Positions 13,677 through 40,010 of a DNA stretch of 51,451 nt are shown in pieces. Every line of letters begins with the position of its first letter. Position 1 is the stretch's first letter. The translations under genes were made by a program, and so were the position numbers. The notes under the pieces were generated by a model, which was given only the letters and a program-made list of their open reading frames with translations, was not told the DNA's origin and did not search any database. Origin of the DNA: Elainella sp. Prado103. Its GTDB lineage: Bacteria; Cyanobacteriota; Cyanobacteriia; Elainellales; Elainellaceae. Location of the stretch: the NCBI GenBank assembly GCA_025454395.1, contig JALOOM010000015.1, positions 1 through 51,451 on the forward strand. Reading direction: 5' to 3'.

Positions 13677-13747
13677 TGGGATAAATAGAGATAAGGGAAA
13701 AAGAATGGAATTTAACTTTTGGCGATATCAGAACCAGGAGCTTGTAG

Positions 13748-14872: not shown

Positions 14873-14924
14873 CGTTTATTGGCCTCCTAATTCTGAGTGA
14901 TGACTTTGCGACGAACTGATTGGA

Positions 14925-16133
14925 TTAGACTGCGATCGGCTGCTGACAAAGTAAAGCTTTTAATCGATCGGCGGAGTTGGCGGCTCCTTCTAGATTGAAT
15001 GAGTGCGGTGAAGGTTGCTGCTGCAAATAGGTAAGAATTTTGTCGGCTAATCGATCGCCTGTCAGATCTGCTGGATGAACAACTTGCAGGACTCCCAATT
15101 GCTCTAGCTTCTCAGCCCGAATCGATTGCTCACCTGCCTGATTCTCTGAAATGAATGGAAAAACTAAGGCTCGCACTCCAGTCTTGAGAATATTCATGGT
15201 TGTGTTATAACCACCCAAACTGATTGAGAGATCAGCGGTTTGCATGTATTGAATCAGGTGCGGCGTGAAACGACGGATCGTAAAATTTGTCATGGCTGGA
15301 ACTGGCTCAGAGCCTTCTCCCTGCTGTAATGCCTGAAATTGGGCTTCTGGCATCCAGGGGCCGGCAAAGGCATAAACTTGATGGGGAATCGATCGCGCTA
15401 AAATTGGGCTGGCTTGTTTCAGTGCATTCAAGAGGTCATACCCAAACCGTCCGCCGCCGACACTGGCAACTATTCTCGGTGTCGATTGACTGAGGTGAGC
15501 GGCATCCATGAAGCCAAGTGGTGTTTCGGGTGGAGACTGGGAGACATAGCCTGTGTAGTAGACTTCTGCTGTGAGGCGATCCGCGAGGGGAAAGAAATCT
15601 GCCAATGTTTGTAACTGGGGATCGCCATGAAAGAGAATCAGATCATAGTAACGGTTGACCAGATTACAAACCTTTTCGTACTTGCGATCCCAAGCCTCAG
15701 GCGATAGGGCTTGGGTCATCACCAAATCTCGCAAACTGCACACAATCCGAACCGGATGGGAGGCAGATTTAGCCCGATCGAGCAAGGGCTGCAATTCAAA
15801 TTTGACTCGATGCTTACTAAAAGGAAAACATTCGGTGATCAGACAGTCAGGCTGAAACCGATCGAATACGGCTAGCAGTTGCTGAATGCGATGTTGCTTG
15901 ACTACTTCGATATCGGCCGAGGCATCGACCGCTTTCAACTCACCCGCCTCTTCTAAAATGGCAGGCAAATGCACAACTTCGATCTGGGCAGGTAATTCAA
16001 ACTCAGCGATCGGCTGTCCACCATTTACAAAGCAAACTTGAAAATCGGGAACCAGGCTGCGAATAATTTCTGTGCTCCTCACCAAGTGGCCCATGCCTGC
16101 TAAATATTGGCAATAGAACATGATCTTCTTCAT
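14925..16133 (-). CDS. Predicted glycosyltransferase, COG4671/GT28-C-like
   Basis: The protein opens MKKIMFYCQYLAGMGHLVRS, a GT-B glycine loop (GMGH) like that of MurG and monogalactosyldiacylglycerol synthases. It ends with a GT28-type donor domain (VASVGGGRFGYDLL, FAGPW, FTPHLIQYMQTADLSISLGGYNT, VFPF--ENQAGEQSIRAE). The SLGGYNT-x-E-x-Q pattern is the UDP-sugar binding end of the fold. The start is ATG 16133, with AGAGG 8 nt before it; earlier in-frame GTG 16142 and ATG 16139 sit too close to that site. It is the first gene of the five-gene minus-strand cluster. Confidence 0.8.
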   Translation of the reverse strand: MKKIMFYCQYLAGMGHLVRSTEIIRSLVPDFQVCFVNGGQPIAEFELPAQIEVVHLPAILEEAGELKAVDASADIEVVKQHRIQQLLAVFDRFQPDCLITECFPFSKHRVKFELQPLLDRAKSASHPVRIVCSLRDLVMTQALSPEAWDRKYEKVCNLVNRYYDLILFHGDPQLQTLADFFPLADRLTAEVYYTGYVSQSPPETPLGFMDAAHLSQSTPRIVASVGGGRFGYDLLNALKQASPILARSIPHQVYAFAGPWMPEAQFQALQQGEGSEPVPAMTNFTIRRFTPHLIQYMQTADLSISLGGYNTTMNILKTGVRALVFPFISENQAGEQSIRAEKLEQLGVLQVVHPADLTGDRLADKILTYLQQQPSPHSFNLEGAANSADRLKALLCQQPIAV

Positions 16134-16880
16134 TGGCATCACCTCTTATAGTCTTGGTGGGTTCAGTGAGTTGACCTGTATATGTATGCGACGCAACCTC
16201 GCCTGATTATGACTGTGTGTAATCATAATTTTGTGCGATTGCAACTCACTGTATCGATCGCCATTAAACCTTCGATGAAAGTTATGTGAGAAGCTTTTCA
16301 TCCAGGCCAGCCAATTCTGATCAGAGGCTGGCAGTCCGACCAAGTTGCAGGACAATTCGAACCTTTGCCAAATTCAACTTGTTTGAGAGCGATCCATGCT
16401 GGCAAAACGGAATCAAATTACCTCATGTGCCGTCAAATTTCTGACATACTGCTCATAATTTTGATGGAAACCATTACTTACGTCCATCTCTACTGATTTG
16501 TGAGAGTTTTCTCATCAAACCTTCATGGTCAATTCATTCGCACTTGGCAGGGTAATTTGTATTCTGAATAGAGACGAACCACACTTGAACTTGTTTCCGG
16601 GTCTGAAAATTTTCTACAGCTCGATTTCACAATCACTTGGTTCGTTCGTTGCTGGTCTGAACCGCTACAGTCTCAATCTCCAGGTTGTGCTTCCGTAACA
16701 AATGGGGGTGAGCTGAGCGATTCAATCATGCTTCGTTCCTGATCGTCGCTTACCTCCCAGGGTGAATTTCTGGTGAATTCCAGAATCATCCATTGCGTAA
16801 TCTTTAATTCAATGTATTCAATTGATTTATGTTCTAGTGGTGCTCCTTCGGATCGGTTATTCTCAAGAGAGATTCGAGGG
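16134..16880. other. Long gene-free gap between divergent units
   Basis: About 750 bp separate the divergent glycan cluster and the response regulator. It must hold both promoters, but no clear -35/-10 pair stands out. An inverted repeat, ATTTCTGG (16766-16773) with CCAGAAT (16780-16786), lies 95 bp before the regulator ATG and might be an operator. A 69-codon minus-strand frame at 16146-16355 has no recognisable features and was not called. Confidence 0.4.
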
Positions 16881-17931: not shown

Positions 17932-18125
17932 TTGGATGCTATCGCTGGATGTGACCACTGGATGCCATCACATTTGGGAACCATCACTGAATGCAACAAC
18001 TAGATGCCATCACTGAATGCCATCACTGGATGCAACAACTGGATGTGGCAACCATATGTCATCACTGGATGTCATCACTAGATGCCATCACTGGATGCAA
18101 CAACGGGACGTGACGACTAGACGGA
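17888..18125. repeat. Degenerate GGATGCCATCAC-like tandem array
   Basis: About 18 imperfect units of 11-15 bp of the form (C/T)TGGATG(C/T)-A(T/A)CAC run from inside the 5' end of the pentapeptide gene to 18125, including exact or near-exact GATGCCATCACTG at several places. The rest of the gap to 18398 is AT-rich and must carry the promoter of the downstream NTPase pair; I see nothing else. Confidence 0.65.
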
Positions 18126-18398
18126 ACAGCAATCAGAACTTATCACAACCTATCAAACAACCTATCAAAATCTAACGGACTGGAACCAATTTACCCCAGG
18201 AAACCCACTAGAATATTTCTTCATCCTAGGAAGCTCCATCAAAATTAACAAGGTGAAAAAAGTAAGGATATGGAGAGAGAGTTTCCTCACAGGTCGCTGG
18301 AAACAATTGATTTTTAGGAGATCGATTCCACTCTATACTGAATACTGAATCATACTGATTGCAATCTCTTACTCATCTTGACTCGCGCCGGATCTCTA

Positions 18399-19841
18399 AT
18401 GAATGCGGAAGAAGCCTTGATCTTAGTGGATACGGTGCTTGCCCCACAGCGGCTTAACACAATCCAAGAGCTGGTCTTCAAGCAATGTTTCTTGGGGCAG
18501 ACTTATCAGGAGATCGCCGAGCATTTTGGCTACGACTATGATTATGTGCGCGTCACGGGATATCGGCTCTGGCAGGCGTTAACCGAGGTATTAGGGGAAC
18601 GGGTGACAAAACACAACTTTCGGGCTGTGCTGCGCCAACGGGCAGACCAAGTTGCCAGCGATGGCTCGATCGCCAATCCGGCTGGAATCCATCGAACCCT
18701 GGGGACGGTGGCTGACTCAGAAATCCCCAAGAAACTGCAAGCTACAACTCATCAGGTGATCGCTCCTGCTACCTCTGCTGATGGTTCACCCGCTTGCTCA
18801 AATATTCCTGAATTTCCCAGCGGCTCAGTCGCTTTGGGTTCAGCTTTCTATATGCCGCGCTTTCCAATCGAGCAGCGCGCTTATGCCGAAATTTTACACC
18901 CAGGTGCCCTGATTCGCATTCGGGCCCCGAAGCAATGGGGCAAAACTTCTCTAATGTTACGGTTGTTACAAGTCGCTGAGGCTCAGGGATATCGAACCGT
19001 GCGCCTGAATTTGCAGCAGGTCGATCCGGCAGCCCTCTGGGATCTCGATCGCTACCTACGATGGTTTTGTGCCAATCTGTCGCAGCAACTACAACTGCCT
19101 GCCCAACTGGACGAGTATTGGGATGAAGATTTAGGCAGCAAAATTAGCTGTACCACCTATCTGCGGAGCCATATTCTGGCCCAAGTCCCAACGCTGGTGA
19201 TCGCGCTAGATGATGTGCAGGAGATCTTTGAATTTCCTGAGATCGCCAAAAATTTCTTGCCGCTCCTACGATTTTGGCATGAAGAAGCCAACAATCAAGA
19301 AATCTGGCAGCGGCTCAGGTTAATCGTCGCTCATTCAACGGAAATTTATATTCCGCTCAACTTGAATCAATCACCGTTTAATGTTGGTTTGCCGATCCGC
19401 CTGCGGGAGTTTACTTTGGAGCAAGTCCAGGAATTAGCGCTCCAGCATGGCTTTGACTGGGCGGCTGACACCTCCGGACAACAGCAGTCGAGTGCATTAC
19501 AATCCTTGTTGAATGGGCATCCCTATCTGATCCGACTAGCGCTATATCATCTTTATCACGGTGAGTCGATGCAGACTCTATTGGCAGATGCGCCGACTCC
19601 GGCTGGCATTTATGGTGACCATCTCCTACGACATTTAACAGTGCTGCAAAAACATCCCCACTTGGCAGCGGCCTTTGCCCAAGTGGTGGCAGCCGATCAA
19701 CCAGTTGAGCTGGATACCCTCACCGCCTATCAACTAGAAAGTATGGGCTTGGTGATGATGGTTGGCAATCAATCAGCTCCCCGCTGTCGCCTCTATCAAA
19801 TCTATTTTCATGAACGATTCCATCATTTGTTAAATTCCTGA
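18399..19841 (+). CDS. AAA-like (AAA_35) NTPase with N-terminal vMAP-M0-type helix-turn-helix domain
   Basis: Residues 1-80 form the small domain common at the N-terminus of cyanobacterial AAA_35 and NACHT-like proteins ([58 protein letters not shown]). A linker precedes the NTPase core: [13 protein letters not shown], Walker [12 protein letters not shown] (Lys182, Thr183), Walker [10 protein letters not shown] (Asp271, Asp272) and [10 protein letters not shown] as sensor-like strand. There is no C-terminal effector. The start ATG 18399 matches the family opening; TTG 18378 is the only upstream alternative. Only 22 bp separate it from the next AAA_35 gene, so they are probably one operon. Such proteins are thought to act in signalling or conflict systems, but none of that is shown here. 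Confidence 0.85.
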
Positions 19842-19863
19842 ACTCGTTTGTAACATCAGCCTT

Positions 19864-22800
19864 ATGAGCTTAGAAATTTCGTCCTCGTTCAGTCCTGATT
19901 GGCTTGCTGGTGTGTCATCCGATCCAACGCGGTATCCCTATCAGGTGGGGGGAAGTCTGGCTGCTGAAGCGCCCACCTATGTCATGCGACAGGCCGATCA
20001 CGATCTCCTGGTGGCATTGCATCAAGGGGAATATTGCTATGTTTTCAATTCGCGCCAGACGGGAAAATCGAGTTTGCGAGTTCGCACCCGCTATCGACTG
20101 CAACAGGCTGGTTTTCGTTGCGCGGCGATCGATATGACCAGTATTGGCAGCGAAACCGTGACTCCACTCCAGTGGTATAAAAGTCTGGTCTTCGAACTGT
20201 GGCAAGGGTTTGAACTGAATCGGTTATCGGCAGGAACCTTACCCAGCTTTAAGCAGTGGTGGCAACAAGTTGATCAATCGCCAGTCCAACAATTTAAACG
20301 ATTCATTGACGAAGTTCTGCTCGTTTATATTCCTGATCGCATTGTTATTTTTATTGATGAAATCGATAGTGTCTTGAGTCTTGATTTTTCGCTGGATGAC
20401 TTCTTTGCCTTGCTGCGCTTTTGTCGCAACCAACGAGTCGAAAATCCAGACTACCAACGATTAACATTTGCTTTATTTGGTGTAGCAACCCCCTCTGATT
20501 TGATCTGCGATCGGCAGCGTACTCCATTTAATACGGGCAAAGCCATCCAATTGCGGGGATTTCAGATGCCTGAAGTGGCTCCCCTGTCTTGCGGATTAGC
20601 GGCGATCGTAGCAGATCCAGAGGCTTTGCTGGCTGCTATTTTAGATTGGACAAATGGGCAGCCATTTCTGACCCAAAAGATTTGTCAGTTTGTACTGGAT
20701 TGGGGGGTGGAGCATCCTGGAGAGCAAATTTTAGTCGGCACGGAAGCGGCTTGGATCGCGCAATGTGTCCAGACTCAAGTGATTGATAATTGGGAAGCGC
20801 AGGATGATCCAGAACATCTCCGCACGATTCGCGATCGGCTACTCAGGCAAGAAGTCTCGATCGGGCGGCTTTTAGGGCTATATCAGCAGATTTTGCAACA
20901 GGGATCGATCCCCGCCGATGACAGTTGGGAGCAGATTGAACTGCGGCTATCGGGGTTGGTGTTGAATCAAGATGGTCAGTTACGAGTTCAAAATCGGATT
21001 TATGAGGCTGTCTTTGATCTGCTTTGGGTCAGTAAGATTCTGGTTCGATTGCGTCCCTACGCCACGATATTGTCTGCTTGGCTAAAGTCCGACGGCTTGG
21101 ATGAATCTCGGCTGTTGCGAGGGCAGGCTCTGCAAGAAGCGATCGCTTGGGCGGAAACCCATCAACTCAGCTCGGTCGATTACCAATTTTTGGCAGCCAG
21201 TCAATCGCTGCAAAATCGAGAAACCCAACGAGAAGCGCAGCAGGCGGCTCAGACGGTTGAAATGCAACTGATGCGGCAGCAAGAAGTCTCTAAACTTCAG
21301 CGCTATATTCTCGGCACAGTGAGCGCGGCGTTGTTGTTGAGTATGAGCTTGGGAATTGTGGCCTTTAATCAATCGCGGCAGGCACAAATCAACGAAGTGA
21401 AGGCGTTAGTGAATGCCTCAGAGAAGTCATTTGCCCAAAATCAAACTCTGCTTGCCCTCTTTGAAGCTCTCAAGGCTCGCAAGACCTTCCAGCAGATCTG
21501 GCAGGGCCCCACCAAATTATCAGCTCAAGTTGAGGAAATATTTTTTAAAGCGGCCTATCGAGTTCGTGAATACAATTATCTATCAGGACATCGCGGCACA
21601 ATCTATGACATTGTGTTTAGCCCGGATGGTCGTCTCATCGCTTCTGCCAGTCGCGATGATACCGTGCGGCTGTGGAGACCCGATGGCTCCTTGGTGACCG
21701 TGTTGCGAGGGCATAATGATCGGGTACAGCATGTTGTGTTTAGCCCGGATGGCAAGCGGATTGCTTCTGCTAGCCAGGATGGCACCATCAAACTTTGGCG
21801 ATTAGATGGTTCGCTGATCCGCACCTTAGAAGGCTACAGTGTGGTGGATAATTTGGTGGTGTTTAGTCCAGATGGCCAGCAGGTAGCCGGTGTGACGGAT
21901 AATCACACAATTCGGATCGTGCGATTAGATGGTCAAAAAGTGGCAACTCTGGCAGGGCATCGCGATCAGGTGCGATCGATGGCCTTTAGCCCCGATGGGC
22001 AACTTCTAGTTTCTGCTAGCAAAGACAAAACCCTTAAGATCTGGCAGCACAACCGGCTGCAGCAGCAGATTAGCCATCAAGCGGGTGTGAACCGGGTTGC
22101 CTTTAGTCCCGATGGGCAATTTTTTGCCTCAGCCTCTGAAGATCAATCGATCCGCTTCTGGAGCCGCCATGGAGCTGAGCTGAAAACCCTGTCGAGTCAT
22201 GCAGGCAGCGTTGATCATTTAGTGTTTAGTGCCACCGGACAGGTGTTTGCTTCAGCCTCTACGGATCACACCATCAAACTCTGGCGACAAAATGGCACCA
22301 TTTTGCATACCTTGAGTGATCCGTTTGGGGGATTGACTGCATTGGCAATTAGCCCGGATGGCCAGACGATCGCTTCAGCCAGTGGAAATCATGTGATCAA
22401 ACTGTGGCGAGTTGCTAATCCTCTGCTCACCGTTGTAGAAGGACATTCCGATCAAATTGAAAGTGTGGCCTTTAGTCCAAATGGGCAAATTATTGCTTCG
22501 ACTTCCGATGATCAAACGATGAAACTATGGCAGCGGGATGGACGGTTAATCAGAATATTTGAAGGGCACCATGATGAGGTAGAAGATGTTGCATTTAATC
22601 CAAATGGAGAGCAATTGGCTACGGTTGGTGAAGATGATACTATTAAACTATGGCAGATAGATGGAACATTGAAGGGTGTTCTAAAAGGACATAAAAATGA
22701 TGTTGAAGGAGTAACCTATAGTCGAGATGGTCGCTGGATCGCCTCCTCATCCGATGACAAAACCGTTCGGTTATGGTCTGCCGATGGGCAATTGCTACAA

Positions 22801-23385
22801 ATTTTACGAGGACATACTGCCCGGGTTGAAAGCGTCAATTTCAGTCCAGATAGCCAGCTCTTAATTTCAGCGGGTGCAGATGGGACGATCAAACTCTGGC
22901 AGTTGAATGGCAAATTGGTAAAAACCATTGTGGCCCAAGCAGGAGTGGTTGAAGCGGCTGCCTTTAGCCCTAATGGTCGAATCATTGCGACTGCGGGTGA
23001 AGATGGCACGATTCAGCTCTGGACATTGTCAGGGCAGCGATTCCGCCAGTTTGCTGGACATCAGGAACAAATATTTGCCCTAGACTTTAGTCCAGACGGA
23101 CAACGATTGGCCACAGCGAGTGGAGATGGCACGATCAAAGTCTGGAGTATGGAGGGGGTTTTACAACAGACATTAAGTGGTCATAGTGCCAGTGTGAATA
23201 GCCTCATGTTTAGTCCAGATGGCAAAGCGATCGTCTCTGGCGGCAACGATCGACAAATCATTGTTTGGGATCTCACACAAGCCATTAATACAGAAGAACT
23301 ATCGAATTATGTTTGTGAATGGATACAGGATTATTTAAAAACGAATAGCGACTTAACAGAGCGCGATCGACAATTGTGTCGGTAG
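19864..23385 (+). CDS. AAA-like (AAA_35) NTPase with one membrane segment and 14 WD40 repeats
   Basis: The AAA_35 domain occupies residues about 15-370: [21 protein letters not shown], Walker [11 protein letters not shown] (Gly67-Lys68-Ser69), Walker [10 protein letters not shown] (Asp165, Glu166) and [14 protein letters not shown] coiled linker leads to one hydrophobic segment (residues about 480-502, [21 protein letters not shown]), then a short helical linker, then 14 WD40 repeats from about residue 570 to 1150, each near F-SPDG--IASAS-D-TIKLW. Fourteen equals two seven-bladed propellers. Repeats 3, 5, 6, 7 and 12 lack a canonical GH. The layout resembles STAND-type sensors in which the propellers bind a ligand and the NTPase switches. 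The C-terminus ends in a Cys-containing [12 protein letters not shown]-like helix typical of such cyanobacterial proteins. Probably co-transcribed with the preceding gene. Confidence 0.9.
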
Positions 23386-23631: not shown

Positions 23632-23786
23632 CTGATCGTTGTTTGTTCGATCGTTATTTACCTGATTGTCATTTACCTGATCGTCGTTTGTTTGGTCATC
23701 ATTTATCTGATCGTCATTTACCTGATTGTCATCCGCCTGATCGTCGTTTGCCTAATTGTCATCTGCCTGATCATGATTTGTCTGAA
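23632..23786. repeat. Array of about ten 15-bp repeats (CTGATCGTCATTTAC type)
   Basis: Units CTGATCGTCATTTAC, CTGATTGTCATTTAC, CTGATCGTCGTTTGC and similar follow each other with a constant 15-bp period. Read on the minus strand in one frame they give degenerate five-residue units such as ANDDQ-ADDNQ-VNDDQ, interrupted by one stop and lacking a start codon. The gap 23386-23938 also holds a shorter repeat of TTGATAGTTG(G/C) near 23437-23470. No gene is supported, and the NRPS promoter must lie in 23790-23935. Confidence 0.7.
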
Positions 23787-23938: not shown

Positions 23939-26900
23939 ATGCTGATAAGAATTATGACTGACCATTTTCTGAGTGGGGTAATTACGCAATGGATTGAACA
24001 CCAGGTTGCTCAATCACCTGATGTTACGGCAGTCATCTACCAAACCGAACAAATTTCCTATCAGGACTTAAACCATCGATCCAATCAACTGGCTCGTTAT
24101 TTGCAAGAGTTAGGGGTGGGTGCTGAAACAAGGGTGGGGATTTGCATGAACCGATCGATCGAAATGGTGATCGGGCTACTCGGTATCTTAAAAGCCGGTG
24201 GGGCCTATGTGCCCCTGGATGTCACCTATCCTCCAGAGCGTTTGTCATTCACAATCGAAGATGCACAAATGCCGTTTGTGCTGACCCAAACTGGGCTAAC
24301 CGACGGGATCAGGCTTCATCAGGCTCAGCGAATTTGCTTAGATGTGGCTCCAATTGGGCAATATGCTACCGTAAATTTGGACGGGTTAATCCAGCCGGAT
24401 CAGTTAGCCTACATTATCTATACCTCCGGTTCTACCGGGCAGCCCAAGGGTGTAGCGATCGAACATCGCAATACGGTCGCGCTGATGGATTGGGCCCGGC
24501 AAGTGTTCACAGCAGACCAATTGCGTGGGGTTTTGGCCTCGACCTCTCTCTGTTTTGATCTGTCTGTGTTTGAAATTTTTGTCACCTTAAGCCAGGGGGG
24601 AACCCTCATTCTGGCGGAAAATGCACTGGAACTCCCAAATCTGCCAGCGGCTAACCAAGTCACGTTGATCAATACGGTGCCCTCGGCGATCACAGCATTA
24701 CTGCGCTGGCAGAAGATTCCCCCAGCGGTGCAGACGGTTAATTTAGCGGGTGAACCGCTCCAAACTCACCTTGTTCAACAGTTATATCGTCTGCCCCAAA
24801 TTCAAAAAGTTTACAACCTCTATGGCCCTTCAGAAGACACGACCTATTCCACTGTGGCTCTGATGCCTCGTGATTTGACGGAAATCCCCTCGATTGGGCA
24901 ACCGATCGCCCATACCCAGATCTATCTAATCGAAACCCCGGCACGCCGTCAGCAGGATCCCCTTAAGCCGGTGCCGCCTGGGGTGCCTGGCGAAATTTAT
25001 ATCGGAGGAGCAGGGCTGGCCAGGGAATATTTGAACCGCCCCGAATTGACGGCCGAGCGATTTATAGCCAATCCCTTTGCGGCCGATCCAACTGCCAGGC
25101 TTTATAAAACAGGTGATTTAGCAGTTTATCGACCCGATGGCAATTTGCAATATCTCGGCCGGATCGATCATCAGGTGAAAATTCGAGGCTTCCGGGTGGA
25201 GTTGGGAGATGTGGAAGCGGCTCTAGCACAACATCCAGCGGTGCAAGAGGCGGTGGTGGTCGCAAAGGACGATCGCACCGGCAACAAGCGGTTGGTTGCC
25301 TACATTGTGCCGTCGGAGGGCTCCTCGATGGGGCATTCTGAGCCAGCCCTGCCTGATTTAGCAGTGTCCCAGTCCTCCGATCCAGTCGTTCCAGCCCCGA
25401 TTGAGCAATGGCAGCTTGAGCAGTGGCAACAGATTTGGAGTGCCACCTATGGTCAAGTCTCTGAAATGACGGGTGTGTTATCCGATAGTGTCGGTTGGAT
25501 CGATAGCTTCACCGACTTACCCATGTCCGCCAGTGAAGTAGAAGACTGGGTCAACGCTACGGTTGAGCGTATTTTAGACTTGCGACCTCAGCGTGTTTTA
25601 GAAATAGGCTGTGGTCGTGGCATGGTACTCACTCGCGTGGCACCCCATTGTACCCGCTATGTCGGGCTGGATATTTCCCAGGAGGCGATTCAAGCGCTCC
25701 AGCATCGATTAGCCCAAACCGATCGAGACTGGTGCCATGTCACGGTGTCCCAACGCCCTGCCCATGAGCTAGAGGGTTTGGCAGCAGAAGGGTTTGATAC
25801 GGTCATTTTGAACTCCGTCATCCAATACTTTCCCAGCGTAGAATATTTACTTCAGGTCTTGGAGCAGGCGATCCAATTGCTGCGTCCCGGTGGGCAAATT
25901 TTTATAGGCGATGTGCGCAATTTGCTGTTGCTGAATGCCTTCCATACTGGTATTCAACTCAACCGAGCAGCAGCCGAGCTTTCCTGCCAACAATTACGGA
26001 GCCGGATTCAGGATCGGATCAGTCAAGATCAGGAACTGGTCTTGCATCCAGACTTTTTCTTAGCGCTCAAGCAGCACTTCCCCCGGATTCGTCATATCCA
26101 ATCGCAACTGAAGCGCGGCTCCTCAAACGATGAATTGACAAGGTTTCGGACAGATGTTTTGCTCTCCTTAGATCAGCCGGTGTTACCGATCGTCGCAGTA
26201 ACTGAGATCGACTGGCAGGAGCAACCGTTTTCGCTGGATCAGTTGCGTCAATATTTAGAGGGGACTGCCCCTCCTTCGCTCCGGCTCAATCGGGTGCCCA
26301 ATCAGCGGTTGTGGATGGCGGTTCGAGCCACCGAACTCCTGCAAAATCTGTCTGCCGATACCCCAGTGGCAGTACTCAGAGATCAATTGGCAGCCGATTC
26401 TAGTCTGGCGATCCATCCAGAAGCCTTCTGGCAACTGGGCGCAACGTTGTCTTATCGGGTTTATGTGACGGGCGCAACGGATCCTGCCAATGGCACCTAT
26501 GATGTCGTGTTTCAACGGGTCACTGATCAGCCGATCGATCAGCGCTGGGGATTAGTGGAGCCGGAAATTACCCTGAAGCCATGGCAGGCATATAGCAACA
26601 ATCCTGGGAAAGCTATAGAACGAGAACATTGGATCCCCCAGTGGCGGCAGTGGCTGCAAGACAAACTTCCAGACTATATGGTGCCTTCTGCGTTCGTTAT
26701 GCTGGATCAGCTCCCGCTCACTTTGAATGGCAAAATCGATCGACGAGCCCTACCGGAACCCAAGCAAGATCGTCCAATCCTGCCCACCGCTTATGTGCCA
26801 CCCGCCACCCCTTTAGAAAGCCAGATGGCGGAAATCTGGTCCCAGATCCTGGAGGTTGAGCCGATCGGTATGCATGATAATTTTTTTGATCTGGGGGGAC

Positions 26901-28420
26901 ATTCTCTGCTCATGACCCAGTTGATTGCCCAGATAGCGACGGTAATGGGGATGGAGGTGCCCCTATTTCACTTGCTGCGGGAACCTACGATCGCAGGGCT
27001 GATCCAAACTCTGAAAACACTGCCCCAAACCGTTTCAGGCTGGCAACCTCCGGCGATCGATTTTGCCCAGGAAACCAGGCTCGATCCCACGATTCAACCG
27101 GAGGGCGATCCGGACAGTGGATCACCGGACTGGGCAGACCCCCACCATATTCTTGTGACCGGCGCAACGGGCTTCTTAGGCGCAGCTTTGCTTGATCAAC
27201 TCCTGCAACAAACTGAAGCAAAGCTTTACTGTTTGGTGCGCGCCTTCAGCCTGGAAGAAGGGCTGCGTAAACTGCAAGACACCTTAGAGCGCTATCAACT
27301 TTGGCAAGGGGAGCTGCCCAAGCGGATCATGCCTGTTTTAGGTGATCTATCCCAACCTCGATTGGGGCTGGCTGAACCTCAGTTTCAGGCTTTAGCCCGT
27401 CTGTTGGATGGAATTTATCATGCTGGGGCGTTGGTGAATCTGGTATATCCCTACAGTGCATTACGGGATACCAATGTGCTAGGAACTCAGGAAATTCTGC
27501 GATTGGCTGCCCTGGGCAAAGTGACTCCGGTTCACTATATCTCGACGATCGATGTTCTCAAGCCGTTAGCCAATGTGCAGCAACTGCATCGATCGTCTGA
27601 TGCTCCCCCCCTTTTAGTGACTGAAGCCGCTTGTCCAGACGATGGATCGGTGATTGACAAAGGCTATACTCAAACCAAATGGGTGGCAGAGCAACTGGTC
27701 ATGGCTGCTCAACAACGCGGCATTCCCGCCTGCATCTATCGTCCAGGCATGTTGACAGGCCATAGCCGCACGGGGGCATCCCAAACCAACGATCTGCTCT
27801 GCCGCATCCTCAAAGGGGTCATTCAATTGGGGATAGCCCCTATCCTGGATCGGGCGATCAATATGATTCCGGTCGATTATGCCAGCCAAGCGATCGTTTA
27901 CCTCTCAATGCAGCCCCAAGCTAGGGGTAAAGCCTTTCACATCCTGAATTCTCAGGCTTTACCCTGGAATGAGTTGATCCAACGGATCAGCGATCTGGGT
28001 TATCCGCTCCGTTCTTTACCCTACCCCCAGTGGCAGGCGATGTTGTCGAATCTAGACCCCACAACGGGGAATGTGTTAGCTCCGCTGTTGCCCTTATTCA
28101 CAGAGATCGATCCGAAAACAGCGTTAACCTATTTTGAAACTTTCTTAATGACGGCCCAATCATTTGATAGTCGCAATACCCTGGAGGGGTTAGCCGAAAC
28201 TTCAATCACCTGCCCGACTATTGACCCAGCGCTACTAAAGACTTATTTTGATTACTTTCGACAGGTCGGCTTTTTGCCGTCTGTCCCCCATCTGTCCATT
28301 TCCCCTCTGGAGGAGCAACCGTACGAAACGCCACTCAAAGACATTAAACGTCAAACAACTCAATGGCTGCACCGAGTTCACCAGCCGATCGATCAACCCA
28401 ACATTCAGCTCTTTTCGTAG
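23939..28420 (+). CDS. Single-module NRPS: adenylation domain interrupted by a methyltransferase, carrier protein, terminal reductase
   Basis: The adenylation domain runs from about residue 15 with core motifs LKAGGAYVPLD (A2), YTSGSTGQPKGV (A3), FDLSVFEIF (A4), NLYGPSEDTTYS (A5), GEIYIGGAGLAREYLNRP (A6), YKTGDLA (A7) and VKIRGFRVELGDVE (A8, about 413). After A8 a SAM-dependent methyltransferase is inserted (VLEIGCGRG at about 553, then LLRPGGQIFIGD), the usual site of NRPS N-methyltransferases. The adenylation domain then closes with NGKIDRRAL (about 930). A carrier protein follows (DNFFDLGGHSLL, Ser989), then a thioester-reductase domain (VTGATGFLGAAL at about 1073, YTQTK with Tyr1243/Lys1247). 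There is no condensation or thioesterase domain. Aligning by eye with GrsA, the specificity positions read D-L-F-N-N-A-L-T-Y, which I recall as alanine-like but cannot check. Expected output is an N-methylated amino aldehyde or alcohol. ATG 23954 is an alternative start. Confidence 0.9.
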   Translation: MLIRIMTDHFLSGVITQWIEHQVAQSPDVTAVIYQTEQISYQDLNHRSNQLARYLQELGVGAETRVGICMNRSIEMVIGLLGILKAGGAYVPLDVTYPPERLSFTIEDAQMPFVLTQTGLTDGIRLHQAQRICLDVAPIGQYATVNLDGLIQPDQLAYIIYTSGSTGQPKGVAIEHRNTVALMDWARQVFTADQLRGVLASTSLCFDLSVFEIFVTLSQGGTLILAENALELPNLPAANQVTLINTVPSAITALLRWQKIPPAVQTVNLAGEPLQTHLVQQLYRLPQIQKVYNLYGPSEDTTYSTVALMPRDLTEIPSIGQPIAHTQIYLIETPARRQQDPLKPVPPGVPGEIYIGGAGLAREYLNRPELTAERFIANPFAADPTARLYKTGDLAVYRPDGNLQYLGRIDHQVKIRGFRVELGDVEAALAQHPAVQEAVVVAKDDRTGNKRLVAYIVPSEGSSMGHSEPALPDLAVSQSSDPVVPAPIEQWQLEQWQQIWSATYGQVSEMTGVLSDSVGWIDSFTDLPMSASEVEDWVNATVERILDLRPQRVLEIGCGRGMVLTRVAPHCTRYVGLDISQEAIQALQHRLAQTDRDWCHVTVSQRPAHELEGLAAEGFDTVILNSVIQYFPSVEYLLQVLEQAIQLLRPGGQIFIGDVRNLLLLNAFHTGIQLNRAAAELSCQQLRSRIQDRISQDQELVLHPDFFLALKQHFPRIRHIQSQLKRGSSNDELTRFRTDVLLSLDQPVLPIVAVTEIDWQEQPFSLDQLRQYLEGTAPPSLRLNRVPNQRLWMAVRATELLQNLSADTPVAVLRDQLAADSSLAIHPEAFWQLGATLSYRVYVTGATDPANGTYDVVFQRVTDQPIDQRWGLVEPEITLKPWQAYSNNPGKAIEREHWIPQWRQWLQDKLPDYMVPSAFVMLDQLPLTLNGKIDRRALPEPKQDRPILPTAYVPPATPLESQMAEIWSQILEVEPIGMHDNFFDLGGHSLLMTQLIAQIATVMGMEVPLFHLLREPTIAGLIQTLKTLPQTVSGWQPPAIDFAQETRLDPTIQPEGDPDSGSPDWADPHHILVTGATGFLGAALLDQLLQQTEAKLYCLVRAFSLEEGLRKLQDTLERYQLWQGELPKRIMPVLGDLSQPRLGLAEPQFQALARLLDGIYHAGALVNLVYPYSALRDTNVLGTQEILRLAALGKVTPVHYISTIDVLKPLANVQQLHRSSDAPPLLVTEAACPDDGSVIDKGYTQTKWVAEQLVMAAQQRGIPACIYRPGMLTGHSRTGASQTNDLLCRILKGVIQLGIAPILDRAINMIPVDYASQAIVYLSMQPQARGKAFHILNSQALPWNELIQRISDLGYPLRSLPYPQWQAMLSNLDPTTGNVLAPLLPLFTEIDPKTALTYFETFLMTAQSFDSRNTLEGLAETSITCPTIDPALLKTYFDYFRQVGFLPSVPHLSISPLEEQPYETPLKDIKRQTTQWLHRVHQPIDQPNIQLFS

Positions 28421-28476
28421 GGTTTGATATCTTCAATCTGACAGGTGTAATGTGAAGGATCAAAGCTGGGCATTCT

Positions 28477-28520
28477 GAAGCTAGGTTGAAGCCAGGTTGA
28501 AGCTAGGTTGAAGCCAGGTT
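28477..28520. repeat. Four 11-bp tandem repeats (GAAGCYAGGTT)
   Basis: GAAGCTAGGTT and GAAGCCAGGTT alternate exactly (28477, 28488, 28499, 28510) just after the NRPS gene. Confidence 0.85.
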
Positions 28521-28560
28521 AATAGCCGGGGCATCCTGGCAAGGGTAGAAGATCAAAGCT

Positions 28561-28632
28561 GCAATATCAAGGCAATATCAAGGCAATATCAAGGCAATAT
28601 CAAGACTGCAATATCAAAATTGCAATATCAGG
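28561..28632. repeat. 11-bp tandem repeats (GCAATATCAAG)
   Basis: Four exact GCAATATCAAG units start at 28561 and two degenerate GCAATATCA copies follow at about 28608 and 28622. With the array 40 bp upstream this fills most of the gap 28421-28736. The two arrays share a period of 11 bp but not a sequence. No gene is present; the kinase promoter is probably at 28640-28735. Confidence 0.8.
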
Positions 28633-28736: not shown

Positions 28737-31388
28737 ATGATGTTTCATTCCGTCGGTGCAAAATTATTCTTCTACGTGTTGAGCAGCGCGCTGATCGGAT
28801 TGGGCGGCATGTCTTTTTTCTTTTATCAAGCCTTAGAAGACCAGGCGAAGAAGGAAATTACCGGCACGCTTAATACCCAGGTGAAATCGATCGAGGGTAA
28901 ACTGGCCCGGGCTGAACAGACCATGTTGGGGGTGGTAGCAGCCGTAAAAACCTTGGAACAGGCTGATATCCGTGATCCTGAAGTTTATAGCCAGATGGTG
29001 TTCGAGATCCTGAGGAAACGCTCCTCTCTCACCATGGGGGTAGGATTTGGTCAGGCTCCTTACCGTATCTTGCCCGATCGAGAACAGTATTGGCCTTACT
29101 TTTTCGTGGATCAACAGGTGCCCAACCAAGTCGGGGAACCCCTGCCTCCTCCCTACAATGACATTCGTAAAACCGATGTCTGCGAGTTAGAGCCTACTTG
29201 CTTTGAGCAGAACTATTACACCTTGCCCGTAAAGGCCGGTAGACCCATCTGGCTAGAGCCCTACGAATGGGGTAATATCGCGCTCACAACGACCACTGCT
29301 CCTATTTATAATTCCCGCGGCCGCCTTTTGGGCATCGTGGGGCTTGATATTAATGTGACCGCTCTAACCAATGAGGTGACAGCCCCGGAGGGTTGGCGGG
29401 GTGGCTACTTTTTGATTTTAAGTGAACAGGGCAATTTACTGGCCTATCCGCCCGATCCCGATAAGGCGAAGTCCTTTGCCACCTATCAAGATATTCCTCA
29501 GTTACAGCCCATCTGGGGACAGATTAGCGGAGATCAGTCTGGCATTCTGGTGGATGGGGGCAAATATTGGGCCTATCAGCATGTGGAGGGGACAAATTGG
29601 TTAATGCTGGCTGCTGTGCCGCAGTCGGTGGTATTGGCTCCCGTAGTGGCCATTGCGATCGGCGGGGCGCTCGGGGCAGGGTCGGTGTTGGCTCTCGTCG
29701 TTTTCCTGTTGGTGCGCCATCTGAATCATCGGCTTGAACCGATCCTGGCAGAATGCAAACATCTGGCGGAAACCAACACGCAGCGTGGGGAGGGCGACAA
29801 TAGTGCCTCTGAGGTAGCCGATCTAGATCGATTAGTGGCAAACCTGGAGAAAGCCGATGAGATCAAAGTCTTAGAAGTATCTTTTCACCACATGGCAGCC
29901 CAGCTCAAAGCTTCGTTTGAAGAGTTAGAGTCGCGGGTGGAGGCCCGAACCGCCGAACTCAAACAGGCAAAAGAACAGGCGGATGGTGCCAACCGGGCCA
30001 AAAGTGAGTTTCTGGCCAATATGAGTCATGAATTGCGGACACCGCTCAACGGCATTCTCGGATATGCCCAAATTTTGCAGCGCTCATCCACGTTGTCCGA
30101 TTCAGAACGCAAAGGGCTAGGGATTATCAGCCAATGTGGTACGCATTTGTTGACCTTGATCAATGATATTCTTGACCTCTCGAAAATTGAAGCTCGAAAA
30201 TTGGAGTTGTATCCCAGCGAGTTCAATCTACCGTCATTCTTGCAAAATGTGGTGGCAATCTGCCGGGTGCGCGCTGAGCAGAAAGGGCTAAAGCTAACTT
30301 ATCAGGCCGATCAAGATTTGCCGATGGGTATTCTGGCGGATGAGAAACGGTTGCGGCAAGTCTTAATTAATCTTTTGAGCAACGCAATTAAATTCACGGA
30401 TAGTGGTTCTGTCACTTTTACAGTATGTTCCCATTTATTACTTGGGCAGGAGCGCCGATATCGGCTGCGGTTTCAAGTGGATGATACGGGTATTGGCATC
30501 TCGCCGGAGCAATTAGAGCGAATTTTCTTACCCTTTGAACAAACGGGAGCGCTTGATAAGAAAGCAGAAGGAACTGGGTTAGGGCTGACCATTAGCCAGA
30601 CCATTGTGCAGATGATGGATAGTATGTTGATGGTGAAGAGCCAGTTGGGGAAGGGCAGCAGCTTTTGGTTTGAAATAGATTTGCCGGAGACGATCGGATG
30701 GCAGCAGCCCGTTACGCAAGTCCGTGAACAAACGGTGATTGGCATTCGGGATCGCCAACCCAAAATTTTAGTTGTGGATGATCTTTGGGAAAATCGATCG
30801 GTGCTCGTTGGTTTGCTAGGGCTAATTGGGTTTACTGTGTTTGAAGCAGTTCATGGCTTAGATGCTTGGAATCAAATCATGACCTTACAGCCTGACTTAA
30901 TCATTACGGATTTAATGATGCCTGTGATGGATGGCTATCAACTGCTAGAGAAACTGCGCCAGTCTGAGTCATTTCACCAGATCCCAGTGATTGTCTCGTC
31001 AGCAAGTGCCTTTGAAACGGATAAAGCCAAAAGTTTGCAGGCTGGAGCCGATGCATTTATTTCAAAACCGATCCAGGTTGATCTATTGTTAGAAATTCTG
31101 CGGGTTCACCTGAATTTGGAGTGGATCTATGGAGCACCCCACCCCGGAACTGCATTAGAGATGGCTACCGTAGATGGCACGGTCACAGAGATTGTGCCTC
31201 CTTCACAGGAAGACCTGACTCTGTTGCTGGATCTGAGTCGAAAAGGGCTCATCAAAAACATTCTGCACGAAATTGAACGTATTGAGGCGAGCGATCGGCG
31301 CTTCGTACCTTTTACTCATCAGTTACGCCAGTTTGCCCAAAGCTTTCAACTGAAGCAAATCCGTGTTTTTGTGGAGCAGTATTTGTAA
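28737..31388 (+). CDS. Hybrid sensor histidine kinase with extracytoplasmic CACHE domain and receiver
   Basis: An N-terminal membrane helix (about 8-30) precedes a periplasmic double-CACHE sensor (about 31-295, including WLEPYEWG and GIVGLDINV), and a second helix (about 300-330) leads to a HAMP-like linker and coiled coil. The HisKA box is [10 protein letters not shown] (His431). The ATPase shows [18 protein letters not shown], and [10 protein letters not shown] receiver domain follows with VVDDLWEN and Asp725 in [13 protein letters not shown], then a conserved tail ([18 protein letters not shown]) often seen in cyanobacterial hybrid kinases. The ligand is unknown. It is followed after 76 bp by a receiver-kinase gene on the same strand, so the two may form one phosphorelay. 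Confidence 0.92.
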
Positions 31389-32920: not shown

Positions 32921-34102
32921 TTAACCTTGATGCTGATGCCGCTGTTCCGATTGCAAGTAACAGTGACAATGCGGTTTTTCCAGTAAAGAGGCAACCAGTG
33001 TGTTGAGCGTAGTAGCAGCTAACAACCCCCCCCCCATCGTTCCTTCTAAGGTAATGAAAGGCACAGAAGATTGCATCAGACGACGTTTGGCAGAAGGAGC
33101 ATGGCTGAAGCCGATCGGCATACCAATCACCAATGAGGGCTGTAAAGTACTTTGATTGATCGCATCACAAATCGCTAATAGTACGGAAGGCGCATACCCC
33201 ACCACCAGCAGACAACCCTGGGGAAGTTGATTCACCCGTTGTCTGAGTGAGGTACTATGCCAGAACTCCTGTTCCGCTTCTGAGGCGCTATGGATGTGGG
33301 GGTTGTTGATTAAAGCTTCAACTGAACAGCCAAGATGAGCGAGCCGAGTTTGATCCAGCATGGCCGCAATCATAGCCGTATCAGTGACAATCGGGCAGCC
33401 TTGTTGCAGCGCCGTTCGAGCCGCCCCAATCGCGTTCTGTGCTGGCGATCGACTCAGCCTGACAAACTGAATCAGACTCACATCTCCTCCTGCCAATACC
33501 AGTTGAGACAGCAATTCCGCTTCAATTTCGGAACGATCGCTGAGATCGGGCAACAAGCGCTGTAAGGCTTCTTGAAACATTTCCGGATGGGCATGCACTT
33601 CCCCATCTAAGCTGTTCCATAGTTTATCCAGATCGTCCCGACTCTGATAGGTATCAATTTCCAACTGTTTGAGTTGGGACAAAGCATTGGCCTGAACAAT
33701 CTGGCAGGACTGATCCCGTCCCAACAGCCGTTCTAGCGCAACCGCTGTTTGTCTGAGTTGGCTAATTTGGTGGATCACAGCTCGATATTGCTGTTGCAAC
33801 TGGGTGATCAACGAGTCACGCTCTGAGATCGGTTCAACGTCCAGCAGTTTACGAATGTGAGAAAGTTGAAACCCTTGCTGCTTCAAAGCCACAATTCGCT
33901 TCAGACGCTGCACATCTTGTTCAGAATAGAGGCGGTAGTTGCCAGCCGATCGGGGTGGCTGAGGCATCAGTCCAAGCTGGTGATAGTGCCGTACCATACG
34001 AGGCGTAATGCCTTGTCCAACCGCAATAGTGAGTTCTTTGATGGTGAGTGCTGAAGCAGAGGTAACCATAGAAGCAGAGGTAACCATAGCAGAGATAACC
34101 AT
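32921..34102 (-). CDS. coaR: Cobalt-responsive MerR-type regulator with CobH/CbiC-like effector domain
   Basis: The N-terminal MerR winged helix (about residues 18-90: LTIKELTIAVG-ITPRMVRHYHQLGL, NYRLYSEQDV) and dimer coil (95-130) are fused to a precorrin-8X methylmutase-like domain (about 160-370: GDVSLIQFVRLS, GCPIVTDTAMI, VVGYAPSVLLAI, LVIGMPIGFSHA, TMGGGLLAATTLNTLV). The C-terminus carries Cys-His-Cys (about 379-381). This is the arrangement of Synechocystis CoaR, which activates the cobalt exporter gene coaT, and coaT is divergent here. The position of the catalytic His of true methylmutases reads Leu (VLAGGD, about 203), fitting a sensing rather than a catalytic role. The N-terminal MVISA/MVTSAS repeats come from a DNA repeat, so the true start may be ATG 34069; GTG 34117 and ATG 34102 are also in frame. 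Confidence 0.92.
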   Translation of the reverse strand: MVISAMVTSASMVTSASALTIKELTIAVGQGITPRMVRHYHQLGLMPQPPRSAGNYRLYSEQDVQRLKRIVALKQQGFQLSHIRKLLDVEPISERDSLITQLQQQYRAVIHQISQLRQTAVALERLLGRDQSCQIVQANALSQLKQLEIDTYQSRDDLDKLWNSLDGEVHAHPEMFQEALQRLLPDLSDRSEIEAELLSQLVLAGGDVSLIQFVRLSRSPAQNAIGAARTALQQGCPIVTDTAMIAAMLDQTRLAHLGCSVEALINNPHIHSASEAEQEFWHSTSLRQRVNQLPQGCLLVVGYAPSVLLAICDAINQSTLQPSLVIGMPIGFSHAPSAKRRLMQSSVPFITLEGTMGGGLLAATTLNTLVASLLEKPHCHCYLQSEQRHQHQG

Positions 34103-34228
34103 AGCAGAGATAACCACAAGGGAGAGGGCGATTCAAACTGAGGAGCACTGGGGTAGCAGCACTGGGGTAGCAGCACTGGAGGTTAGCAGACCAGCCACGC
34201 CGCTCAAAAAATGACTTGATATCAGATT

Positions 34229-34290: not shown

Positions 34291-36393
34291 ATGGTGACGA
34301 TGTTGCCAATTTCTTTCTCCTCGATCCGTCACTCGTGGATCGCTCGATTGCTAAATTCTGGCTGGAATCACAGGGGGTTGAGCCAATATGCCGATATGAT
34401 TCCGCCCCTGCTCTGTGGATTGTTGTTGCTGTTGGGTTGGTTGACCCTCCATATCGGTTGGATTGGCCTAGCCTTGCTGATTTTAGCCGCGGCTTATGGG
34501 ATCGGGGGTTTTGCCAGTGCGCGTGAAGGATTGACGACTCTCTGGCAAGAGAAAGAGTTGGATGTGGATTTGCTGATGATTGTGGCGGCCTTGGGTGCGG
34601 CAGGACTGGGATTATGGCGGCAAGAATACTACCTGCTGATCGATGGGGCTGTGTTAATCCTGATTTTTTCAATTAGTGGTGCGTTGGAAAGTTATGCGAT
34701 GGGTCGCACCGAACGAAGTATTCGCAGTTTGATGCGCCTGACCCCAGATGCGGCCTGGTTACTGCACCAAGGGCAAGAAAAACAAGTGTCGATCGCCCAA
34801 CTGAGGATCGATGATCAGATTTTAGTTAAACCCGGAGAGCTGATCCCAACCGATAGTGTGGTGGTGGATGGCTATAGTACAGTCAATCAAGCGGCGATTA
34901 CGGGTGAATCGATTCCGGTAGACAAAACAGTCGGCGATGAAGTCTTTGCTGGAACCTTAAATGGCCACGGAGCGCTGAAACTGCGAGTGCATCAACCACC
35001 AGAAAGCAGCTTGATTCAGCGAGTGATTCGATTAGTAGAACAGGCCCAAACCGAGAAACCCCCCTCGCAGCAGTTTATTGAAGCCTTTGAGCGCGGGTAT
35101 GCCAAAGTGGTGGTGGTAGTCGGTGTGTTATTGATGGTGTTGCCGCCATTCTTGGTGGATTGGAGTTGGGAAGACACGATCTATCGAGCCCTGATTTTTC
35201 TGGTGGTTGCTTCTCCTTGTGCCTTGATGGCTGCTATCATGCCAACGCTGTTGTCTGGAATTGCCAATGGAGCCAGCCAGGGGATTTTGTTCAAAAATGG
35301 GGCTCAGCTTGAGCAGATTGGTCGGGTGAAGGCGATCGCATTTGATAAAACCGGCACCCTCACCACTGGCCAACCCACGGTTCAGACGATTGTGCCAGCC
35401 CCAGGCTATTCAGAACAGCAAGTTTTAACGATCGCAGCGGCCCTAGAAGCCTATTCGGAGCATCCGATCGGGCAGTCGATCCATCAAGCCGCCCTACAGC
35501 GATCGATCGATCGGCTCCCAGTCACTGATGTACAAGCTCAACCGGGACAAGGCATTTGGGGACGGGTGGACTCAGAGGCATTGCCAACCCAAACATTGCC
35601 AACCCAAACATTGCCAACCCAAACATTGCCAACCCAAACATTGCCCTTGCAGCAACCCAAGCAGTCTGTGCCATTGGCCGTGGGTCAGCTCACATTTATT
35701 CAGCAGCTTTTAACCCCCTCTGCTGCCCAGACCGATCAACCGATCAGCCATATCCTGCCTGTCGAGTTAGTTCAACAAGCCAAACAGTTACAACAAACGG
35801 GTCAGACTGTGGTGGGTGTTGTGGCTGGCCAGCAATTGATCGGGCTAATTGGGGTGGCTGATCAAGTTCGCCCAGAGGCTGCCCATGCCATCCACCAGTT
35901 AAAAAAATTAGGGATTCAACATGTGATTATGTTGACGGGTGACAATTGGGATACAGCGCATAGCATAGCCCAGCAGGTGGGCATTCAAGAAGTTCATGCC
36001 AATCTTTTACCAGAAGACAAGCTGAAGCTAATGCGACAATTGCAAAAGCGGTATGGAGCCGTTGCGATGGTTGGCGATGGGATGAATGATGCCCCTGCGC
36101 TGGCCCAAGCAACCGTGGGGATTGCCATGGGGGCCGCCGGAAGTGATGTGGCTTTAGAAACGGCTGATATTGTGTTGATGACTGACTCACTCGAAAAAAT
36201 TGCCCTTGCGGCTCAACTGGGTCGTCGATCGCAACGAATTGTGAAACAGAACATTGGTTTAGCCCTCAGCTTTATTCTGCTCCTGCTGATCGCCAATTTT
36301 GCCGGTAACATCACCTTACCGATCGGTGTGATTGGGCATGAGGGCTCAACGGTGCTAGTCACCCTGAGTGGGTTGCGCCTTCTTAAAGCCTAA
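34291..36393 (+). CDS. coaT: P1B-4-type metal-exporting P-type ATPase, cobalt exporter
   Basis: A 700-residue P-type ATPase. Motifs: phosphatase loop TGES (204-207), ion-site SPC (308-310) in VASPCALMA, phosphorylation DKTGTLT (Asp352), nucleotide-binding SEHPIG, hinge GDGMNDAP (595-602) and a final-helix HEGST (683-687). SPC together with HEGST defines the P1B-4 subgroup (Co/Zn/Fe exporters), and there is no N-terminal heavy-metal domain. The divergent coaR gene and the operator between them make cobalt the likely substrate. The nucleotide-binding domain holds an insertion of LPTQT units encoded by a 15-bp repeat at 35581-35640. Start ATG 34291 follows the promoter by 27 bp. Runs toward but is separated by 130 bp from a convergent response regulator. 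Confidence 0.93.
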   Translation: MVTMLPISFSSIRHSWIARLLNSGWNHRGLSQYADMIPPLLCGLLLLLGWLTLHIGWIGLALLILAAAYGIGGFASAREGLTTLWQEKELDVDLLMIVAALGAAGLGLWRQEYYLLIDGAVLILIFSISGALESYAMGRTERSIRSLMRLTPDAAWLLHQGQEKQVSIAQLRIDDQILVKPGELIPTDSVVVDGYSTVNQAAITGESIPVDKTVGDEVFAGTLNGHGALKLRVHQPPESSLIQRVIRLVEQAQTEKPPSQQFIEAFERGYAKVVVVVGVLLMVLPPFLVDWSWEDTIYRALIFLVVASPCALMAAIMPTLLSGIANGASQGILFKNGAQLEQIGRVKAIAFDKTGTLTTGQPTVQTIVPAPGYSEQQVLTIAAALEAYSEHPIGQSIHQAALQRSIDRLPVTDVQAQPGQGIWGRVDSEALPTQTLPTQTLPTQTLPTQTLPLQQPKQSVPLAVGQLTFIQQLLTPSAAQTDQPISHILPVELVQQAKQLQQTGQTVVGVVAGQQLIGLIGVADQVRPEAAHAIHQLKKLGIQHVIMLTGDNWDTAHSIAQQVGIQEVHANLLPEDKLKLMRQLQKRYGAVAMVGDGMNDAPALAQATVGIAMGAAGSDVALETADIVLMTDSLEKIALAAQLGRRSQRIVKQNIGLALSFILLLLIANFAGNITLPIGVIGHEGSTVLVTLSGLRLLKA
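35581..35640. repeat. In-frame 15-bp tandem repeat within coaT, four exact copies
   Basis: TTGCCAACCCAAACA is present four times exactly, encoding (LPTQT)n in the ATPase nucleotide-binding domain. Because the unit is 15 bp, copy number could change without a frameshift. Confidence 0.92.
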
Positions 36394-39998: not shown

Positions 39999-40010
39999 TC
40001 GGCTACCACG

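Follow-up and report, generated by a model that had tools for sequence, protein, structure and literature searches.

A stand-alone A-MT-PCP-R enzyme encoded beside a sensor kinase in Elainella sp. Prado103: a candidate one-enzyme small-molecule synthase

What can a nonribosomal peptide synthetase (NRPS) module make when it carries adenylation (A), methyltransferase (MT), carrier (PCP or T) and reductase (R) domains and no condensation (C) domain, and with which genes does it work? The question is raised by a gene in the window, the 51,451-nucleotide stretch of Elainella sp. Prado103 DNA analysed here (compared loci, genomes and families are designated by L, G and f numbers). The original prediction was that this enzyme alone could load one amino acid, methylate it and release it, that it had no partner genes, that neither the two kinases downstream nor the AAA pair upstream was biosynthetic, and that the product might be a signal.

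The enzyme and its genome

The gene runs from ATG to stop over exactly the positions listed in Table 1 with no internal stop, and the protein starts directly with the adenylation domain, no other domain preceding it. Pfam models matched in the order AMP-binding (1.6e-78), Methyltransf_12 (1.2e-18), PP-binding (3.9e-11) and NAD_binding_4 (2.8e-67). The core motifs were found at residues 84 (A2), 156 (A3), 206 (A4), 293 (A5), 351 (A6), 389 (A7), 407 (A8), 553 (VLEIGCGRG of the methyltransferase), 910 (A9), 930 (A10, NGKIDRRAL), 980–991 (spanning LGGHS of the carrier), 1075 (start of GATGFLG), 1200 (YIST) and 1243 (YTQTK). Pfam and motifs thus agree on the predicted architecture in an intact protein of 1493 aa, with all adenylation cores, a methyltransferase after A8, the carrier serine and the YxxxK of the reductase.

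Table 1. Positions of the enzyme, its domains, the adjoining kinases and nearby repeats in the window
Feature	Position	Strand	Basis
Tandem array of a 15-nt repeat, preceding the NRPS gene	23632..23779	.	repeat scan
A-MT-PCP-R monomodular NRPS-like enzyme, 1493 aa	23939..28420	+	ORF, Pfam, motif scan
Adenylation domain, cores A2–A8 and start of AMP-binding_C (residues 20–462)	23996..25324	+	Pfam, alignment, motifs
Insert that follows A8 and precedes A9, housing the SAM methyltransferase (Pfam core, residues 554–653)	25325..26623	+	insert limits approximate
A9–A10 motifs closing the adenylation domain	26666..26752	+	motif scan
Peptidyl carrier domain, LGGHS phosphopantetheine serine	26825..27010	+	Pfam, motifs
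Thioester reductase domain, T-Y-K residues kept	27155..28288	+	Pfam, structure-profile match, motifs
Tandem repeats with an 11-nt unit, inside the 316 nt that separate the NRPS gene from the kinase gene	28476..28630	.	repeat scan
Hybrid sensor histidine kinase, 883 aa: TM, periplasmic dCache, TM, HisKA, HATPase, REC	28737..31388	+	Pfam, profile; TM segments by eye
dCache domain of the 883-aa kinase	28818-29666	+	profile
Second partner kinase, a REC–histidine kinase hybrid of 481 aa	31465..32910	+	Pfam, model

The methyltransferase lies between A8 and A9 and carries a SAM-binding motif, as in interrupted adenylation domains. Among solved structures it aligned over 302 positions (5e-47) with 5wmm, which we take to be the N-methylating domain of TioS, with LEIGxGxG and NSVxQYFP kept; the SAM-binding residues, which the original prediction had singled out for a structural check, are therefore present. 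The R domain retained its T, Y and K residues and was far closer to the MxaA R domain (7e-97) than to carboxylic acid reductases (CAR, 5.7e-29); since we take MxaA R to be an alcohol-forming four-electron reductase, an alcohol is as likely a product as an aldehyde. The closest solved A domains belong to NRPSs, namely linear gramicidin synthase and the microcystin synthetase McyA (chain 8jbr), and the specificity pocket read from the alignment is DLFNNALTYK, presumably an alanine code, although this exact string was not found in the literature searched. CARs have the A-T-R order as well, according to the available text of PMC7586950; the identity of the R and A domains' nearest relatives speaks against assigning the window enzyme to them.

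The host genome (5.84 Mb, 99.3% complete) gave no match to the condensation domain model PF00668 with two candidates scored, a search that was positive in 4 of 14 control genomes. It encodes one phosphopantetheinyl transferase (PPTase; 251 aa, resembling Sfp in size alone). Its single strong thioester reductase is the window enzyme itself (1.3e-68), the next NAD_binding_4 match being at 9.1e-15. The only other megasynthase-sized ORF with an AMP-binding domain (2967 aa, on another contig) begins with that domain, probably of the FAAL type, and continues with carrier, KS, AT, DH and ER-type domains; it is a polyketide synthase without C domain in the 2456 aa scanned. No condensation partner, in cis or in trans, was thus found in the genome searched, in line with the predicted lack of condensation domains.

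With a complete domain set in one protein and a genome free of C domains, the predicted load-methylate-release enzyme is supported at the level of sequence, and we consider the following chemistry probable. The A domain would activate a small amino acid, probably L-alanine, to be carried by the PCP; the embedded methyltransferase would N-methylate the bound amino acid; and the R domain would release it as 2-(methylamino)propanal, which might be reduced a second time to N-methylalaninol or form a cyclic N-methylated dimer. Since dimerisation to a simple aromatic pyrazine is closed to an N-methylated amine, chemical reasoning makes a small secondary amine (the monomer) or an N-methyl cyclic dimer the more likely product.

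Linkage to sensor kinase genes

The search for relatives took full-length matches from 386 genomes of the phylum and from 36 of the order; the phylum-wide searches with the enzyme and with an MT-less relative scored two candidates per genome, and the resulting sets are samples. Beyond the window enzyme, they included at least seven A-MT-PCP-R monomodules (L097–L100, L104–L106), so that the architecture proposed for a search does recur in cyanobacteria, together with at least three A-PCP-C-A-MT-PCP-R dimodules (L101–L103) and at least one C-A-PCP-C-A-MT-PCP-R protein (L107). The MT-less query was covered for the most part in at least 44 places, which domain models resolved into 12 A-PCP-R, 2 A-PCP-C-A-PCP-R and 30 C-first proteins (6 of them cut at the upstream end), and two Nostoc plasmids added L116 and L054; the plasmid of Nostoc sp. 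NIES-3756 bears the locus in its dimodular form. A separate search of genome contigs for close orthologs returned 23 loci with no monomodular A-MT-PCP-R by domain models. Not every R motif of the A-PCP-R proteins was picked up by simple patterns (e.g. in L110, L112, L163, L164), and nothing was drawn from those cases. Two further arrangements were seen: L054 (Nostoc sp. C052 plasmid, 7887–12722) encodes A-PCP-C-PCP-R, one A domain for two carriers, with large kinase proteins on both flanks, and L001 (a Microcoleus vaginatus MAG) encodes a multimodular NRPS starting A-MT-PCP-C, preceded by a kinase that is cut at the locus edge.

For linkage counts, loci were chosen by NRPS similarity only and ORFs of at least 100 aa were counted, leaving aside L147, L152 and L153 (picked by kinase), L106 (contig end), and L113 and L114 (fragment, overlapping stretch). 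A histidine kinase was encoded at most three ORFs away from all seven testable A-MT-PCP-R genes and 11 of 12 A-PCP-R genes (18/19 monomodules), 5/7 A-first multimodules and 1/31 C-first NRPSs, in which other NRPS genes fill part of the three-ORF space and 6/31 are cut on the upstream side; the background among far ORFs was 4/276. The comparison of 18/19 with 1/31 gives a Fisher p of 2e-11, which is not independent evidence, the rows being related. The reductase tree holds a single independent pair of mono- and multimodular branches (three pairs for the trait 'begins with A') and has no power, so the contrast partly reflects shared descent. On the same tree the linked label required 6 changes, with starred branches forcing at least 4 of them, against a shuffled mean of 19.5, and 5 once seven cut or untestable rows were left out; linkage tracks lineages, yet occurs in several, and it was found in the family codes f1, f3, f6, f10, f12, f14 and f21 as well as on Nostoc plasmids.

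Gene layout is stronger evidence than the p-value: in 16 of the 19 monomodular loci, the NRPS gene is followed immediately, on the same strand, by a kinase gene. In L111 NRPS and kinase are separated by a split R fragment, and in L161 the next gene encodes a separate dCache protein, followed two ORFs further by a HAMP kinase. L162 is the only monomodule with no kinase nearby, and a sensor kinase of the same kind is encoded about 11 kb away in its genome. Matches to the model of the second window kinase, the REC-kinase, lay within three ORFs in 10/19 monomodular loci, after the sensor kinase in the window, L097–L099, L108 and L111 and before the NRPS in L104, L112, L158 and L163; these varying positions suggest that the NRPS-kinase set has been kept together despite rearrangement. 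Among 22 loci compared all against all, the shared neighbours were mainly kinases and other signalling proteins, plus a permease pair in two, and no biosynthetic gene except the NRPS was shared. The view that the enzyme lacks partner genes must therefore be given up: the sensor kinase is a conserved partner and the likeliest functional link of the enzyme, and it was wrongly set aside, while the second kinase accompanies about half of the monomodules. In the literature covered, mostly titles and openings of abstracts with many journals outside its scope, a linkage of this kind was not described.

Searches in the reverse direction showed that the kinases also occur without an NRPS. Among the 15 full-length REC-kinase matches listed for the order, 9 (the window included) had a reductase NRPS within three ORFs, 5 had none and 1 was at a contig edge; two more partial matches on one short contig (L154) had none. 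CHASE2 sensors occurred in two of the NRPS-less kinase pairs (L148, L149) and a dCache-HAMP sensor in one (L154, short contig). On a Calothrix plasmid (L197) a kinase pair follows a phosphonate-type binding protein, and on an Acaryochloris plasmid (L196) a sensor-type kinase follows a REC protein, both without NRPS. For the dCache HK-REC form of the window (type 1), 7 of 9 matches below 1e-125 adjoin an NRPS, these seven having built the profile, and L200 and L201 do not; all nine more distant matches examined (L202–L208, L216, L217) were without NRPS. L201, a type-1 kinase pair grouped with export genes and a thioesterase, belongs to G289, in which the A-MT-PCP-R gene sits elsewhere, at a contig end. 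Of the 21 matches to a second, dCache-HAMP form (type 2), 16 were compared: 9 adjoin A-PCP-R genes (8 had built the profile, G145 had not), in G187 the A-PCP-R gene is some 11 kb distant (L209), and the other 6 lack one (L210–L215).

Sensor domains, outputs and other neighbours

In the window kinase, the periplasmic dCache domain sits between two apparent TM segments. This type-1 sensor is common to seven NRPS-linked kinases, the others being 54–68% identical to that of the window. Seven further kinases have the type-2 form, recognized by Pfam, below the dCache cut-off, in L108, L109, L112 and L115 and by alignment in L111, L159 and L163; the L110 kinase aligns with them and has no dCache match. 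Another dCache-HAMP form was found in L103 and L116, a MASE1 front in L101 and L102, a borderline amino-acid-permease front in L105 (24.8 bits, cut-off 24.6), and fronts resembling each other with no Pfam match in L147 and L164.

Against solved structures, the type-1 profile matched 7psg best (2.9e-12, covering positions 132–219 only), with the amine receptor 3lib fifth, 6d8v, presumably McpX, eighth and the amino-acid receptor PctA (5ltx) fourteenth; other top matches included 7k5n, 9hvj and 9heh. The type-2 profile gave weak matches (best 3.8e-4) with no amine preference. According to the available part of PMC10104139, 7psg is PacA with betaine, 3lib is an amine receptor, and the dCache_1AM motif comprises a central aromatic pair and a terminal Asp, both of which amino-acid receptors have too, an Arg marking the amino-acid motif. 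By eye on the alignments, all seven type-1 sensors have a YY or YF pair and the Asp of GLDI, and all seven lack the Arg two residues before the aromatic pair; these positions alone do not prove membership in dCache_1AM, and the 7psg alignment leaves the Trp, the Met/Ser and the Arg-Asp cap unmapped. A pocket that kept the aromatic pair and Asp and lost the carboxylate-binding Arg would suit an amine without carboxylate, which is the expected product of the enzyme. A strict match between sensor type and A-domain code was rejected: type 2 occurs with Ala- and Gly-like codes and type 1 with Ala-, Gly- and Pro-like ones. The A-PCP-R of L158 (G116), for instance, has the code DVQFIAHVVK, which we take to be proline-like, and lies beside the same type-1 dCache kinase as in the window.

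Second-messenger enzymes or a phosphatase were encoded within three ORFs in 5/19 monomodular loci, namely REC-GGDEF in L098 and L099 (with GGDEF-EAL one gene further in L099), GGDEF in L109, a class III cyclase in L110 and REC-SpoIIE in L115; none of these outputs adjoins the genes in the window. The kinases and regulators scanned, which are a part of all neighbours, included no DNA-binding response regulator, and no exporter adjoins the three window genes. L097 has a PPTase gene directly after the two kinases (18078–18710, +, running off the contig end), and in L108 aldehyde dehydrogenase family proteins lie on both sides of A-PCP-R and kinases (711–2084, -; 10639–12108, +); both fit an aldehyde-releasing carrier enzyme, each in one locus only. 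A BPD_transp_2 permease pair near the A-MT-PCP-R of L104 (15021–17448) and the A-PCP-R of L112 (15825–17932) may import the product, by analogy with the Lsr system for AI-2.

Upstream of the enzyme, an AAA_35 protein and a 1173-aa WD40-repeat protein are encoded (18378–23385, +). The former has no homolog in the 22 loci and the latter a single match, over 26% of its length, in L110; because they are nearly absent there, both are probably unrelated to the enzyme. A MerR regulator fused to a CbiC-like domain (32921–34117, -) follows the kinases, divergent from a P-type ATPase (34291–36393, +), an arrangement that presumably resembles the cobalt system CoaR/CoaT and is ordinary. The window also contains a run of glycosyltransferases with an ABC transporter (9200–16142, -), forming an exopolysaccharide-like cluster, and an 895-aa protein joining a DUF1400 alpha/beta hydrolase to an AAT (penicillin acyltransferase-like) domain (47833–50520, -). 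Short tandem repeats with units of 11–15 nt are frequent across it, several being nearly perfect (45520–45624, 35579–35645, 39944–40000, 44522–44571 and others), and a scan for promoters and terminators gave no excess over shuffles.

Proposed function and comparison with known systems

We give an even chance to the reading that the locus pairs a one-enzyme synthase of a small molecule with a sensor kinase of its own, for which the domain order, the intact active-site residues, the lack of C domains in the genome searched, the single PPTase and the conserved linkage form the observed basis. The product would leave the cell, and the hybrid kinase encoded next would detect it with its periplasmic dCache domain and, here with the REC-kinase hybrid, relay phosphate to an output, perhaps a second-messenger enzyme in some relatives. 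The earlier suggestion of a signal as the product gains support from the kinase linkage, and a signalling role is the leading if unproven interpretation.

A different order of events, in which the kinases act upstream, an outside cue switches on the NRPS and the product is an effector (allelochemical, metallophore or building block) and not the ligand, appears less likely, though it accounts for several observations: biosynthetic genes often have adjacent regulators, the kinases occur without NRPS too, the sensor types vary without strictly tracking the A code, and a MerR-type gene follows the window kinases, though it looks paired with the metal ATPase. Against it stand the neighbours scanned, in which the outputs were c-di-GMP or cyclic-nucleotide enzymes or a phosphatase with no DNA-binding response regulator among them, and the rarity of a kinase within three ORFs of C-first reductase NRPSs, which would be equally in need of regulation (1/31, subject to the filled space and the 6 cut loci mentioned above). 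Supply of the amino aldehyde or alcohol in trans to another pathway (e.g. for a polyketide or lipid headgroup), the kinase linkage being historical, seems improbable: the genome does encode a polyketide synthase on another contig, and the dehydrogenases of L108 suggest a possible role of the aldehyde as an intermediate of metabolism in that locus, but the neighbours shared among the 22 loci are mainly signalling genes, and the link recurs in seven family codes and on Nostoc plasmids. A functionless remnant of a larger, lost NRPS cluster, to which the multimodular relatives (L101–L103, L107, L116) and the C-free genome might point, is very improbable, given that frame and all searched active-site motifs are intact in 8/8 A-MT-PCP-R proteins, window enzyme included, and that C domains are also absent from 5 of 13 other monomodule-bearing genomes tested (G395, G389, G060, G116, G056).

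Taking up the synthase-and-sensor reading again, we tentatively put forward, at less than an even chance, that it extends to a new class of signalling in cyanobacteria, from cell to cell or back to the producer, in which a single C-less NRPS, with or without MT, would make a very small amine signal from Ala, Gly or Pro; the adjacent sensor kinase would read this signal and relay it to c-di-GMP or cyclic nucleotides. Swapping the A domain, the MT or the sensor type would then give chemically distinct private channels, and cyanobacteria would gain a signalling system whose synthase and receptor are encoded side by side and which, with one enzyme and one sensor, is simple enough to be rebuilt in the test tube.

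Among known proteins, the interrupted adenylation domain of TioS (A4-M4, 5wmm) shares the SAM and NSVxQYFP motifs over the 302 aligned residues; we take TioS to belong to a multimodular line with no R domain. The window enzyme itself has A, T and R domains with their catalytic residues and no C domain, and C-less A-T-R enzymes making aldehydes, pyrazines or signals are already known (ATRed, PvfC and HamD; PMC7586950, PMC10512218, PMC5878181), so that the 'unusual complete pathway' of the original prediction should be put more modestly. AusA/PzaA, which makes aureusimine (available text of PMC10512218), is A-T-C-A-T-R, the order of the dimodular kinase-linked L152 and L153, to which L101–L103 and L116 add an MT; it has a C domain, unlike the window enzyme. 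ATRed of Xenorhabdus indica is a minimal A-T-R enzyme whose proposed product, an amino aldehyde, forms a pyrazine by dimerisation; it activates Phe and has no MT, and the accessible part of the paper mentions no linked kinase (PMC7586950), whereas the window enzyme has both MT and kinase.

The closest parallels are the likewise C-less and monomodular HamD, PvfC and MgoA. As far as the available texts go, valdiazen, a quorum signal, requires HamD (PMC5878181) and autoinducers require PvfC (PMC10512218, PMC10194917), the ham, pvf and mgo NRPSs are described without methyltransferase, and the pvf cluster has a diiron N-oxygenase. The window enzyme has an embedded MT and a sensor kinase next door, and a Pfam scan of three ORFs before and four after its gene found no PvfB-type N-oxygenase; it is not of the pvf type as far as the oxygenase defines one. 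That dCache domains sense AI-2 (available text of PMC7584622) is a precedent for receptors of a made signal of this kind, and the pvf paper, in its accessible part, leaves the receptor to future study, whereas here an A-T-R enzyme of the signal type is paired with a candidate receptor. By analogy, the locus would best be read as operating like the A-T-R enzymes of the valdiazen and pvf systems, with methylation and a dedicated sensor in addition.
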